Shown here: positions 1-62,275 of the stretch, piece by piece | How positions within the stretch are numbered: the stretch's first letter is position 1 | Layout: each line of letters starts with the position of its first letter | Origin: Natrinema sp. SYSU A 869 | GTDB taxonomy: Archaea; Halobacteriota; Halobacteria; Halobacteriales; Natrialbaceae | Assembly: GCF_019879105.1 (NCBI RefSeq) | Contig: NZ_CP082249.1 | Location: 496,001 to 560,000, forward strand | DNA length: 64,000 nucleotides | Direction of reading: 5' to 3' | Notes under the pieces: model-generated | The model's database searches: none | What the model was told of the DNA's origin: nothing | The model's input: the letters and a program-made list of their open reading frames with translations, nothing else | Position numbers and translations under genes: made by a program

Positions 1-154
1 CGACTGAAATCATCATACCGATCCCACATCAGCGTGAAATCGGCTTTACAGTGACTATTATCGCCCTTGTAGTCGTTTGGGTGGTTGCCCCACACCCCAG
101 CGCCGGAGCGCCAAAGAGAAAGGGATTAAGAGCCTCTAGACGGAACCACTCTAC

Positions 155-346
155 ATGGCAATCAAACCGGCCTACGTCAAGAAGACCGGGAAGCTCCTCC
201 TGGAGCGGTATCCGGAGGCGTTCACGACCGATTTCGAGCAGAACAAAGAGAGCGTCACCAAGCTCACGAACGTCGAGTCCAAGGGCGTCCGCAACCGCAT
301 CGCGGGCTACGTGACGCGAAAGAAAGGCGCAGAAGTTCCCGCGTAA
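155..346 (+). CDS. rps17e: 30S ribosomal protein S17e
   Basis: A 63-residue protein with the full S17e family sequence: a basic N-terminus (MAIKPAYVKKTG), then LLERYPEAFTTDFEQNK and a C-terminal RNRIAGYVTRKKG. This is a small-subunit ribosomal protein found in archaea and eukaryotes but not bacteria, and the length is normal for archaea. It is basic, unlike most proteins in the window, as expected for an rRNA-binding protein. The ATG at 155 opens directly into the conserved N-terminus. The asd gene follows about 630 bases downstream with a small opposite-strand gene between. Identification is by family recognition and is secure. Confidence 0.96.
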   Translation: MAIKPAYVKKTGKLLLERYPEAFTTDFEQNKESVTKLTNVESKGVRNRIAGYVTRKKGAEVPA

Positions 347-494: not shown

Positions 495-752
495 CTACTG
501 GTCGAGGCCGGGTTCCATGTACACCGCGGCGACGAACGCGACGAGAGCAATCCCGAACCCGAACAGGAGCCCGATAACGCCGGTCAGGATGTTCAGATCC
601 AGGCCGATTACCGGGAGCATCCCATCGTTGTAGCCCGTCCAGGCGAAGATGACGCCTAGCAGCGCCGCGACGGCCGCGATGGCTGCCGCACCGATGCTGA
701 ACCGGGTGTCGAACAGTCCTCGGTCACTGGTGTTCGCAGTCGAACTCGTCAT
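495..752 (-). CDS. Small two-helix membrane protein, unknown function
   Basis: An 85-residue protein with a short polar N-terminus and two hydrophobic segments, about residues 19-39 (SIGAAAIAAVAALLGVIFAW) and 54-77 (NILTGVIGLLFGFGIALVAF), separated by a short loop containing YNDG. It ends in an acidic tail. A longer reading frame extends to 1073, but its upstream part is arginine-rich and runs over the start of asd, so the ATG at 752 is preferred. It is convergent with S17e and divergent from asd. No family is recognised; it resembles the many small membrane proteins of haloarchaea. Confidence 0.7.
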   Translation of the reverse strand: MTSSTANTSDRGLFDTRFSIGAAAIAAVAALLGVIFAWTGYNDGMLPVIGLDLNILTGVIGLLFGFGIALVAFVAAVYMEPGLDQ

Positions 753-12837: not shown

Positions 12838-13617
12838 ATGGGTAGCCGCCGACGCACGATCGTCGCACTCCTCGTCACGGCGCTCTCGAGTTTTCTCATA
12901 CTGACCGGAACAGTCGCTGCACAGTCGGAAAACCGCGACCTCATCGACTCCCTCGAGTACCAACTCCTCTACGTCGCCCTGCCGCTGACCCTGTTCGTCC
13001 TCATGATCCTAATCTACGCGGCCGTGAAGTTCCACGACAACGATGATCCCCAACCGACTACGGAGGATCCCGCCCTCGAGATCACCTGGACCGCCGCGAC
13101 GGCTATCATCCTGCTGTTCGTCGGGCTCTCGGGCTACAGCGTCCTCGTTAATCCCTACGTGTCGCCGTCGCAAGCACTCGAGGACGATGACCGCAGTCAG
13201 GAGGGATTCGACTCGTTCGAGGACCTCCCCGAAACCGACGACGAGGTGGTACACGTCCGCGGCTACCAGTGGGAGTGGCAGGCGACCTATCCCGGCACGA
13301 ACGTAACGACGGAGAACGAGATCGTGATACCAGCCGACAAGGATGTCACGTTTTGGCTCACCAGTGATGACGTCATCCACTCGCTGTTCGTCCCGGATCT
13401 GGCTGTCAAACAGGACGCGTTCCCCGGTGACTACACCCGCGCTCGGACCATCGTCTCTGAACCCGGCCGTTACGACGCCGTCTGTTCCGAATTCTGTGGT
13501 GCCGGCCACTCACGGATGGACGCCACGGTCGTCGTCGTCGAACCCGAGACCTACGACCAGTGGCTCGAGGACAACGCGGGCAACGACAACGTCACCGCGG
13601 CACCGGAACCCGGATGA
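12838..13617 (+). CDS. coxB: Heme-copper oxidase subunit II
   Basis: A 259-residue subunit II that receives electrons from a donor through the CuA centre. It has a signal-like first hydrophobic segment (residues 8-29), two membrane segments (about 44-64 and 83-103) and a C-terminal cupredoxin domain. All CuA ligands are present: H181, C216, E218, C220, H224 and M227 in CSEFCGAGHSRM. The ATG at 12838 sits 26-29 bases after a TATA-like GTATATCAC (about 12807-12815), which fits a leaderless transcript. It is divergent from subunit I with 220 bases between, so the two oxidase transcripts probably share a regulatory region. Confidence 0.94.
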   Translation: MGSRRRTIVALLVTALSSFLILTGTVAAQSENRDLIDSLEYQLLYVALPLTLFVLMILIYAAVKFHDNDDPQPTTEDPALEITWTAATAIILLFVGLSGYSVLVNPYVSPSQALEDDDRSQEGFDSFEDLPETDDEVVHVRGYQWEWQATYPGTNVTTENEIVIPADKDVTFWLTSDDVIHSLFVPDLAVKQDAFPGDYTRARTIVSEPGRYDAVCSEFCGAGHSRMDATVVVVEPETYDQWLEDNAGNDNVTAAPEPG

Positions 13618-13728
13618 TCACCGGCAATGTTCGATCAGTACTCGAGTCCGAGGCGTCCATCTCCCTGCGGCTACGGTCGACTGCGCGGCGAGGGCAAGCC
13701 TGCAAGAGTTAAACGGGTCCCGTTCCTA

Positions 13729-13910
13729 GGAACAGTGCGTGCCTTCAGTCCCCGTCCGAGCAAACCCATTCGGGTGCGATGACAGTACGGCGAACCCGGG
13801 CACGCGACAGTAGTACTTCGAGGAACTCCCACGAGTCCCTCCGCCCGGCACGAGGGTTAGCCAGCCGACGCGGCACGCCGCCACGGGATGAGGCTGGACG
13901 TTAGTGTTCC
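13729..13910. ncRNA. Candidate multi-arm structured RNA (strand unknown)
   Basis: The gap from 13618 to 14144 holds no convincing protein gene but has nested inverted repeats. GGAACA (13729-13734) pairs with TGTTCC (13905-13910) and encloses three arms. Arm 1 is GCGTGCC (13737-13743) with GGCACGC (13799-13805), with an inner hairpin ACCC-ATTC-GGGT at 13764-13775. Arm 2 is 13822-13828 with 13833-13839. Arm 3 is CCAGCC (13861-13866) with GGCTGG (13892-13897), with an inner hairpin GCGG-CACG-CCGC at 13870-13881. Just left are two palindromes, AACGGGTCCCGTT and GTTCCTAGGAAC (13711-13733). Arm 2 pairs fully only on the minus strand (G-U), but a TATA-like GTTAAAC at about 13709-13715 favours the plus strand. 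No known RNA family is recognised. Confidence 0.4.
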
Positions 13911-14144
13911 GGGTGACATTTTCATAGAGCGGCTATCCTCAAGGGTCGAGTTTGTGGATTCCCAAACACTCAAACCGAGAGACACGGACCACTCGGCCTC
14001 GAGAGAAGATCGACTACCATTATTGGTTGCTAGATCAGTTTCCAATCCTATCGAATACGGGCGGAATAGCTGCTGAGAGTTCACGTTTCCGTTTGTGACT
14101 TCGGAAACGATTGTCGGGAGGTACGGAGCGGTGTGATGAGTGAA

Positions 14145-14561
14145 TCAACTCTCATCGTTCGTCGATTCCGTCAACGGATCACTATAGAGAAACGACTCAG
14201 TCGGATTACTACCTGTCAGGCCTACCGACTCGAGATCTCTCGCATGCTCGATAGTCACCCGTATCATATCGAAGTTTTCCCCACTAACGAAATCGCCACT
14301 TCGGTGATCGTACGTAATGATTCCGTGATCAGCGAGCCGCGGAAGGTGATTATGTATTAGTGATATTGTTATCGTCTCCTTCTCGTCTTCCGAAACTAAC
14401 TCGATCGCTTTGTCCTGTTCCTCAGCAGCAATCTGAAGGGCTACCCCATCGATGTTCGCATGCTCACTGTCCAAAAGATAGTACAAAATATATCGGCGAC
14501 GGGATTCCGAAAGGAGTTCGTAAATAGTGTCATGATCGAGATTTTCTACCCCTGTATCCAT
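14145..14561 (-). CDS. DUF7344-type winged-helix protein
   Basis: A protein of about 138 residues. Its N-terminal part, LDHDTIYELLSESRRRYILYYL, followed by a region ending in NHLPRLADHGIITYDHRSG, is the haloarchaeal DUF7344 pattern, a predicted winged-helix DNA-binding fold. Such proteins are abundant in haloarchaea and presumed transcription regulators. The ATG at 14561 is used; a TTG at 14582 is also possible and sits about 25 bases after a TATA-like AAATATTTTT (14600-14609, minus strand). Its codon use is more AT-tolerant than that of neighbours such as asd, which is common in accessory genes. Confidence 0.78.
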   Translation of the reverse strand: MDTGVENLDHDTIYELLSESRRRYILYYLLDSEHANIDGVALQIAAEEQDKAIELVSEDEKETITISLIHNHLPRLADHGIITYDHRSGDFVSGENFDMIRVTIEHARDLESVGLTGSNPTESFLYSDPLTESTNDES

Positions 14562-14699
14562 GATTTGGTCTTCCAGAGACAACTGGTTAAGACCCGCTCC
14601 AAAAATATTTGGTGTTGAGATGGCGACATTCTAGGGAGGCCGGTCTCTCCAAGCTATATAGTGAGTATAGTACTGCTTCTGAGGGGACGATATACGCAG

Positions 14700-14745: not shown

Positions 14746-14868
14746 TGGTGGCGGCGAAACGAATTTCCCAGAGGCTCGCGCACTCCAGTACTCACCGTAA
14801 CGCTGGCGAGCTTATCTTCCGTGTTCGGGATGGGTACGGGAGGTACCTCGCCGCTGTGGCCGCCCTAA
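14746..14868 (-). rRNA. rrf: 5S ribosomal RNA
   Basis: About 123 bases beginning TTAGGGCGGCCACAGCGGCG on the minus strand and containing the conserved haloarchaeal 5S core (CCTCCCGTACCCATCCCGAA) and the 3' half pairing back to the start (TTTCGCCGCCACC). It is the last rRNA of the operon, about 130 bases past 23S. Ends are estimated from the terminal helix. Confidence 0.92.
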
Positions 14869-14919
14869 TGCCGATCAACGGGATCGAACCGTTGTCATGC
14901 CAATATCGGTGGCGTGTCT

Positions 14920-14962
14920 AACCGTATGTACGTGTAGTCCAGTTTACGTCCGGACCCGTTCT
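14920..14962 (-). other. 23S rRNA processing stem, 3' strand
   Basis: This segment pairs with 17955-17997 on the other side of 23S. The outer helix is about 22 base pairs (ACCGTGTGTACGTGTAGTCC on the 5' side with GGACTACACGTACATACGGT on the 3' side), and an inner helix pairs GGACCCGTTC with GAACGGGTCC. Between them are short helices with offset unpaired bases (ACU on one strand, UAAA on the other), the bulge-helix-bulge shape cut by archaeal splicing endonuclease to release pre-23S RNA. Confidence 0.8.
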
Positions 14963-14999
14963 CGCGTCACGGATCCAATGCGATGTAATGTATGAATGT

Positions 15000-17913
<2,914 letters not shown>

Positions 17914-17954
17914 CATCGGATCGGCGGTTGCAAAGCAACCACGTAGTGACCCGG

Positions 17955-17997
17955 GAACGGGTCCAGTGGACGCCTGGACTACACGTACACACGGTCT
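17955..17997 (-). other. 23S rRNA processing stem, 5' strand
   Basis: The partner of 14920-14962. On the minus strand it reads ACCGTGTGTACGTGTAGTCC followed by AGGCGTCCACTGGACCCGTT. With its partner it forms the long helix that brackets 23S and contains the bulge-helix-bulge cleavage site. It lies between tRNA-Ala and the 23S 5' end. Confidence 0.8.
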
Positions 17998-18133
17998 CAT
18001 TTGCACGCCGTAGACGCGGCATGCATTAACCCTTCCCACCCGCGTTTACACGGGATGGTGCATCGGTTTCTTCGGATTAGACCAGAATCGTCTGCCCCAC
18101 TTAAGGGGCACGATTCGGTCGTCTTCCGAGCCA

Positions 18134-18205
18134 TGGACCCACAGGGATTCGAACCCTGGGCATCCTCCTTGCAAAGGAGGCACTCTACCACTGAGCTATG
18201 GGCCC
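18134..18205 (-). tRNA. tRNA-Ala (anticodon UGC)
   Basis: 72 bases in the 16S-23S spacer, on the minus strand. It has a 7-base-pair acceptor stem (GGGCCCA with TGGGTCC, allowing one G-U), a D-loop TAGCTCAGTGGTAGAGTG, an anticodon arm CCTCCTTTGCAAGGAGG with anticodon TGC, and a T-arm with GGTTCGAATCC. CCA is not encoded. The position in the spacer is the usual archaeal one for tRNA-Ala. Confidence 0.97.
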
Positions 18206-18240
18206 ACGTCCGCCCACGAAGGGCGGACAGAGCGTATCAC

Positions 18241-18257
18241 GTTAGCCTCGGTAGTTC
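18241..18257 (-). other. 16S rRNA processing stem, 3' strand (bulge-helix-bulge)
   Basis: On the minus strand GAACTACCGAGGCTAAC, which pairs over 17 positions with GTTAGCCTTGGTAGTTC in the 5' leader (19941-19957). Inside the helix, the 5' strand continues GGTG-ACG-CCC and the 3' strand GGG-CACC-TTT: a 4-base-pair helix (GGTG/CACC) flanked by 3-base bulges on opposite strands. That is the exact consensus shape of the archaeal bulge-helix-bulge cut by splicing endonuclease. Confidence 0.85.
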
Positions 18258-18349
18258 AAAGGTGCCCGATCGGCCATACGGTGGTCGATCGAACGTGGAA
18301 CCGCAATCCGCTAAGGTGGGTCAGGCGCGACGGCCTGATCCCGATCTGT

Positions 18350-19822
<1,473 letters not shown>

Positions 19823-61655: not shown

Positions 61656-61731
61656 GACTGGTCCGCTGGTTCCGTTCGCTCGACGTATCGTTTTGAAAAG
61701 CGTTTACTCGCCGGACCTCCCAGGAAAGTGC

Positions 61732-62013
61732 ATGGTCGAGAACGTCATCTGGCCCGCCTATCTCGATGCGGCCCTCTCGCGGGCCGAGGGACGGCGCGTG
61801 TCCGAGGACCTGGCAGTCGAGGAGCCGACGGTCGACGAGATCGCGAAGGCCGTCCAGCAGATCGGGTACGATGCCACGATCGAGCGAGACAAGTCCTACT
61901 CTCGAGAGCACTGGGCCGATCGGGGCCGGGTCGTCGTCCGCGGGGCCGACGATTCGACGAAAAACGACCTCGTACAGGCCGTCGCGGCGTACGTCGTCGC
62001 GATGCGTGAGTAA
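61732..62013 (+). CDS. srp19: Signal recognition particle 19 kDa protein (SRP19)
   Basis: A 93-residue SRP19, which binds 7S RNA and helps SRP54 join the particle. It has the family core [20 protein letters not shown], then [20 protein letters not shown] and [20 protein letters not shown]. The ATG at 61732 ([10 protein letters not shown]) is the natural start. The gar1 gene begins two bases after its TAA, so both are co-translated. Confidence 0.95.
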
Positions 62014-62014
62014 C

Positions 62015-62275
62015 ATGCGCCGGGTTGGCGCAGTCGTCCGTACCGCACAGGGGCTCGCGATCTTGCGGGCGGACGAGGTTGACGGTGACGGGCCTACCAC
62101 CGATATCGAGGTCCACCGCGACGAGATCGGCACGATGGTCATCGATGACGATCTCGAGACGGTCGGCCGCGTCGTCGACGTCTTCGGGCCCGTCTCGCGG
62201 CCCTATCTGGCGGTGACGCCCGATGACGGCGTTCACCTGCCGTCGCTGGTCGGATCGACGCTGTACACACGGTAG
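62015..62275 (+). CDS. gar1: H/ACA RNA-protein complex subunit Gar1
   Basis: An 86-residue Gar1, part of the pseudouridylation complex that modifies rRNA. It is a small beta-barrel: MRRVGAVVRTAQGLAILRAD, then ETVGRVVDVFGPVSRPYLAV and DGVHLPSLVGSTLYTR. The VxDVFGPVxxPY element is the family signature. It directly follows srp19, a common pairing in haloarchaea. Confidence 0.94.
   Translation: MRRVGAVVRTAQGLAILRADEVDGDGPTTDIEVHRDEIGTMVIDDDLETVGRVVDVFGPVSRPYLAVTPDDGVHLPSLVGSTLYTR

Follow-up and report, generated by a model that had tools for sequence, protein, structure and literature searches.

A predicted double H/ACA guide RNA gene, with a hairpin spacer of variable length, beside the rRNA genes of Natrinema sp. 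SYSU A 869

Known double H/ACA guides and the Natrinema locus

The closest described system is the double H/ACA RNA of Haloferax volcanii, in which the two hairpins are named HP1 and HP2 (Grosjean et al. 2008, PMC2584109) or Hvo1 and Hvo2 (PMC4652768). In PMC2584109, HP1 is predicted to guide Psi2621 and HP2 to guide Psi1956 and Psi1958 via alternative pairing; halobacteria are said to conserve both hairpins, which a long spacer separates, and HP1 and HP2 are described as homologous to stem II and stem III of Pf7. The same text presents eukaryotic U19 and yeast snR191 as cases in which one H/ACA snoRNA guides both helix 69 pseudouridine equivalents. The three positions Psi2621, Psi1956 and Psi1958 are also given for the Haloferax guide in PMC4652768, and RNA-Seq in H. 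volcanii shows a single transcript that carries both H/ACA hairpins (PMC6490895). Pyrococcus Pf7/Pab40 and Archaeoglobus Afu4 have three adjacent hairpins, while the RNA reported here has two with a spacer between them, and lacks the first hairpin. Eukaryotic H/ACA snoRNAs are not known to have the kink-turn in its archaeal form. The haloarchaeal RNA formed by HP1 and HP2 is also known as sR-h45.

We analysed a window of 64,000 nts of Natrinema sp. SYSU A 869 (contig NZ_CP082249.1, positions 496,001 to 560,000 of the forward strand), to which all coordinates below refer. The window includes archaeal 16S, 23S and 5S rRNA genes on the minus strand (14746-19822, with the 23S rRNA gene at 14995-17915). 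The segment of interest, 13735-13922 on the plus strand, lies in the gap between the end of coxB at 13617, a gene identified by its COX2 domain, and a DUF7344 protein on the minus strand (14145-14582), which itself sits between the segment and the 5S rRNA gene. As the first-pass annotation had stated, this gap has no convincing protein gene. We conclude with near certainty that 13735-13922 (+) is a haloarchaeal double H/ACA guide RNA gene, corresponding to HP1 and HP2 of H. volcanii, and we infer its transcription and modification activity in this organism. It shares with the H. volcanii RNA described in PMC2584109 the order of its two H/ACA hairpins, a long spacer, the three predicted 23S targets, and an HP2 that fits in two registers. 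Unlike in Haloferax, the spacer has a different length and sequence, and the genomic neighbours are different (coxB here). The kind of RNA is already known; this locus adds a new, unannotated member, whose spacer may hold a new feature.

Two conserved hairpins and their rRNA targets

The RNA is present once in its own genome. A DNA search matches the locus in 122 of the 125 genomes of the family, mostly with a single match, and the alignments show two conserved blocks (13735-13810 and 13841-13922) with a variable spacer between them. Covariance models for HP1 (model R2) and for HP2 (model R1) each match 115 of 116 sampled genomes of the class, always with exactly one copy of each hairpin and with the two together; the matched loci are in Haloferax, Haloarcula, Natronomonas, Halorubrum and others. 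In Haloferax marinum and Haloferax profundi, both models match in the same order and on the same strand. Outside Halobacteria, 21 of the 101 genomes sampled from the phylum give a weak match to the HP2 model, which agrees with the homology to Pyrococcus Pf7 reported in the literature. Three genomes of the family (G064, G074 and G124) have no match in the DNA search, and G064 has no match to either covariance model. These absences are probably due to an assembly gap beside the rRNA operon, since many of the matches in draft genomes are at contig ends near that operon. In a metagenome-assembled genome (locus L107), HP1 and HP2 match on opposite strands, at 120-199 (+) and 579-653 (-), which is either an inversion or an assembly error.

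Alignments of 54 sequences per hairpin show the same architecture in HP1 and HP2: a lower stem, an internal pocket, an upper stem, a GA/GAUGA kink-turn, and then ACA. HP1 (13735-13810, +), delimited by alignment, pair counts and covariance model, has its lower stem at 13736-13743/13799-13806, a kink-turn formed by GA 13758-13759 with GAUGA 13778-13782, and an ACA box at 13807-13809. HP2 (13841-13922, +), delimited in the same way, has its lower stem at 13842-13848/13909-13915, its upper stem at 13861-13866/13892-13897, a kink-turn formed by GA 13867-13868 with GAUGA 13887-13891, and an ACA box at 13916-13918 with a T-run directly after it (13919-13922). Most sequences have ACA or AUA 3' of each lower stem, with a shift of one base or an altered box in some relatives. 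The kink-turn motif is conserved in both hairpins, and L7Ae is predicted to bind it.

The covariation analysis across relatives that the first-pass annotation had proposed finds compensatory changes in the stems while the pockets are almost invariant, as expected if the pockets pair with conserved rRNA. In HP1, AGUCCCC is almost invariant and GAACCC is invariant; in HP2, GGCACGAGGGUU is invariant in the 5' guide region and CGUUAGUGU in the 3' guide region. Each hairpin has six pairs with two-sided changes and approximately 98% of its cells paired, and in both the pairing is lost once the partner is offset by 1-3 columns. The wobble pairs determine the strand: when read on the plus strand, HP1 pair 6/73, for example, has nine U-G wobbles and HP2 pair 3/74 has thirteen G-U wobbles, all of which the opposite strand would turn into A-C mismatches, so the RNA strand is plus.

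These results also change the proposed extent of the element. The first-pass annotation had drawn, over 13711-13910, one element closed by a 6-pair outer stem, with three arms inside and two abutting palindromes at its left edge. The three arms (13736-13806, 13820-13841 and 13861-13897) are all found in the DNA. The outer two are real, with 97.8% and 98.2% of cells paired and 24 and 27 two-sided changes, versus 3.9 and 5.4 in shuffles, and the middle one is the spacer hairpin described below. The two arms of the outer stem, GGAACA (13729-13734) and TGTTCC (13905-13910), do delimit a 182-base segment in this genome, but the stem is not conserved: its left arm, upstream of the putative RNA start, varies freely across relatives (GGAACA, GGCCAA, GAACTG, GAGACA and others), and its right arm forms the end of the invariant pocket and stem of HP2. 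The palindromes (about 13711-13732) are not kept in relatives, where the conserved feature is instead GTTAAAC at 13708-13714. Both the outer stem and the palindromes look like chance. From sequence comparison, the true element is 13735-13922 (+). The proposal of a structured RNA holds, with two tandem H/ACA units joined by a spacer hairpin in place of one closed element.

Upstream of 13735, the alignment of relatives conserves only the TATA-like GTTAAAC (13708-13714, +) and a short CTA. A box resembling GTTAAAC or TTTAAAC occurs at a constant distance in most aligned relatives while the bases around it vary, and its centre is about 24 nts upstream of the putative start. The guide RNA would be transcribed from its own promoter, starting near 13735 and ending at the T-run after 13918.

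The target scan covered 810 uridine sites in the 16S and 23S rRNA of the same organism. The best-scoring site for HP1 is 23S U2618 (GGGUU-UA-GAC; numbering of this gene, at 15298 on the minus strand), the equivalent of Haloarcula Psi2621. For HP2, it is U1953 (UAAC-UA-UGACCCUC; 15963, minus), with U1955 (15961, minus) in a register shifted by two bases; these are the equivalents of Haloarcula Psi1956 and Psi1958. The predicted sites are in helix 69 (U1953 and U1955) and beside the peptidyl transferase centre (U2618). In HP1, the 3' guide AACCCG (13793-13798) pairs with GGGUU just 5' of U2618, and the 5' guide UUCAGUC (13744-13750) pairs just 3' of the target UA with only three contiguous pairs, to the GAC after U2618. 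In HP2, the 5' guide GAGGGUUA (13852-13859) forms eight pairs with UGACCCUC 3' of U1953, and the 3' guide GUUAGUG (13900-13906) pairs with UAAC 5' of U1953 or, when shifted, with ACUA 5' of U1955. All these guides are on the plus strand. Shuffled guides equal the real fit at the exact site with p from 0.0001 to 0.0006, but 7-25% of them fit some rRNA position elsewhere equally well, so that the search over all sites is not significant alone. The target assignment therefore depends on agreement with known sites: the top sites of both pockets coincide with the published H. volcanii guide sites.

Most of the protein partners are identifiable. The genome has Nop10 and L7Ae domains above the Pfam cut-offs and a single TruB-family protein, also above cut-off, which is the candidate Cbf5. 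A Gar1 candidate at 62126-62269 scores 26.6 bits, below the Pfam threshold of 29.3. Within 61693-62275, this candidate is just downstream of an open reading frame that resembles SRP19 by eye, and places a candidate H/ACA protein gene 48 kb from the guide RNA in the same window. In the mechanism that we propose, each hairpin would bind L7Ae at the kink-turn and Cbf5-Nop10-Gar1 at the pocket and ACA box. The HP1 pocket would open around 23S GGGUU-UA-GAC for Cbf5 to convert U2618 to pseudouridine, and HP2 would pair with helix 69 so that U1953 is modified, and U1955 after the two-base pocket shift. The spacer hairpin would act as a linker, not as a guide.

Rival readings of the locus

The coxB gene ends 118 bases before the RNA, in the same orientation, and is directly upstream at about a third of the loci found. 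This could point to a regulator of oxidase expression within the coxB mRNA, in the form of a 3' UTR or attenuator-like element. We consider this very improbable. In most other haloarchaea the RNA is present without an adjacent coxB, which is upstream only in part of the family, and outside some genera the neighbour gene changes; the RNA also has its own conserved TATA-like box, and it is rRNA, not coxB, that its invariant parts match. The length and nested arms would loosely fit another housekeeping RNA that escaped detection, such as RNase P RNA or SRP RNA. Both of these score above the Rfam cut-offs at other places in the genome, which refutes that identity and leaves the reading vanishingly improbable. 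The first-pass annotation had suggested a search with the Rfam models, including RNase P and SRP; Rfam 15 has no match between 13500 and 14700 at gathering score, and up to an E-value of 10 there are only chance matches.

A remaining reading, in which the arms are palindromes that arose in a GC-rich gap by chance or from a mobile element, agrees with the lack of conservation of the outer stem and edge palindromes. It also agrees with the folding of the single sequence: the minimum free energy of 13711-13910 has z-scores of 0.25 on the plus strand and -0.47 on the minus strand relative to dinucleotide shuffles, so that these 200 nts fold no better than shuffles on either strand. The initial argument that so many arms are unlikely by chance is thus not settled by one sequence, and the relatives decide. 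Conservation across the class as a single copy with compensatory changes, and the one copy in its own genome, refute the reading for both main hairpins and make it extremely improbable overall. The same class-wide conservation and covariation, together with the empty Rfam search, bear out the suggestion of a structured RNA that common annotation missed. We keep the identification as a double H/ACA guide RNA.

A spacer made of hairpins

In the window, the spacer (13811-13840, +) has 30 nts and one hairpin (13820-13828/13833-13841). This hairpin covaries among close relatives within the genus, with 95.8% of cells paired and 22 two-sided changes versus 6.6 in shuffles. Across 137 distinct haloarchaeal loci, the spacer length ranges from 0 to 251 nts. 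Perfect hairpins of at least six pairs occur at 20.5 per kb in these spacers, versus 2.2 in shuffles and 1.9 in the flanks, and 52 of the 137 spacers have no such hairpin. Spacers of at least 40 nts have a mean folding z-score of -3.1, compared to 0.07 and -0.5 for the flanks. The long spacers string together as many as nine hairpins in tandem, a tenfold enrichment relative to flanks and shuffles, and alternate two hairpin kinds, as in GGTGATTCCTGACGGAATCACC and GCC-TC-GGCGG...CCGCC-TC-GGC. Examples of loci with hairpin chains are L129 (731-981), L160, L058, L059, L062 and L071. The two Haloferax species have spacers of 54 and 136 nts, versus 30 nts in the window. The spacer of H. profundi (L110, 2227-2362) includes approximately 80 extra nts in one long near-perfect palindrome that H. 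marinum (L101, 1954-2007) does not have, and which looks like a recent insertion.

We have considered several roles for the spacer. A third guide unit is rejected: the hairpins have neither kink-turn nor pocket, and their sequence is not conserved. Dispersed mobile repeats are also rejected, from the one genome of Halorhabdus salina, whose 251-nt spacer has no second genomic match. The data suggest a structural linker or a stability element. A neutral chain is possible, given the 52 spacers without such a hairpin. Tentatively, and at somewhat under an even chance, the spacer could be a fast-evolving module specific to haloarchaea, a tandem chain of 0-9 perfect hairpins, alternating between two kinds, which grows and shrinks from one species to the next. 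It would be a selected structural linker, a protein-binding array, or a processing or stability device between two H/ACA particles. As a selected module, the hairpin-chain spacer would be comparable to an rRNA expansion segment. PMC2584109 speaks only of "a long spacer", and in the literature searched we found no description of the hairpin chain.

The analysis places a near-universal haloarchaeal housekeeping RNA in a genome where Rfam misses it, and the hairpin alignments could seed an Rfam family. Because pseudouridines are few in haloarchaeal rRNA, the three predicted 23S sites may all depend on this single gene. The chain of hairpins in the spacer, which was unexpected and is unexplained, may deserve separate study.
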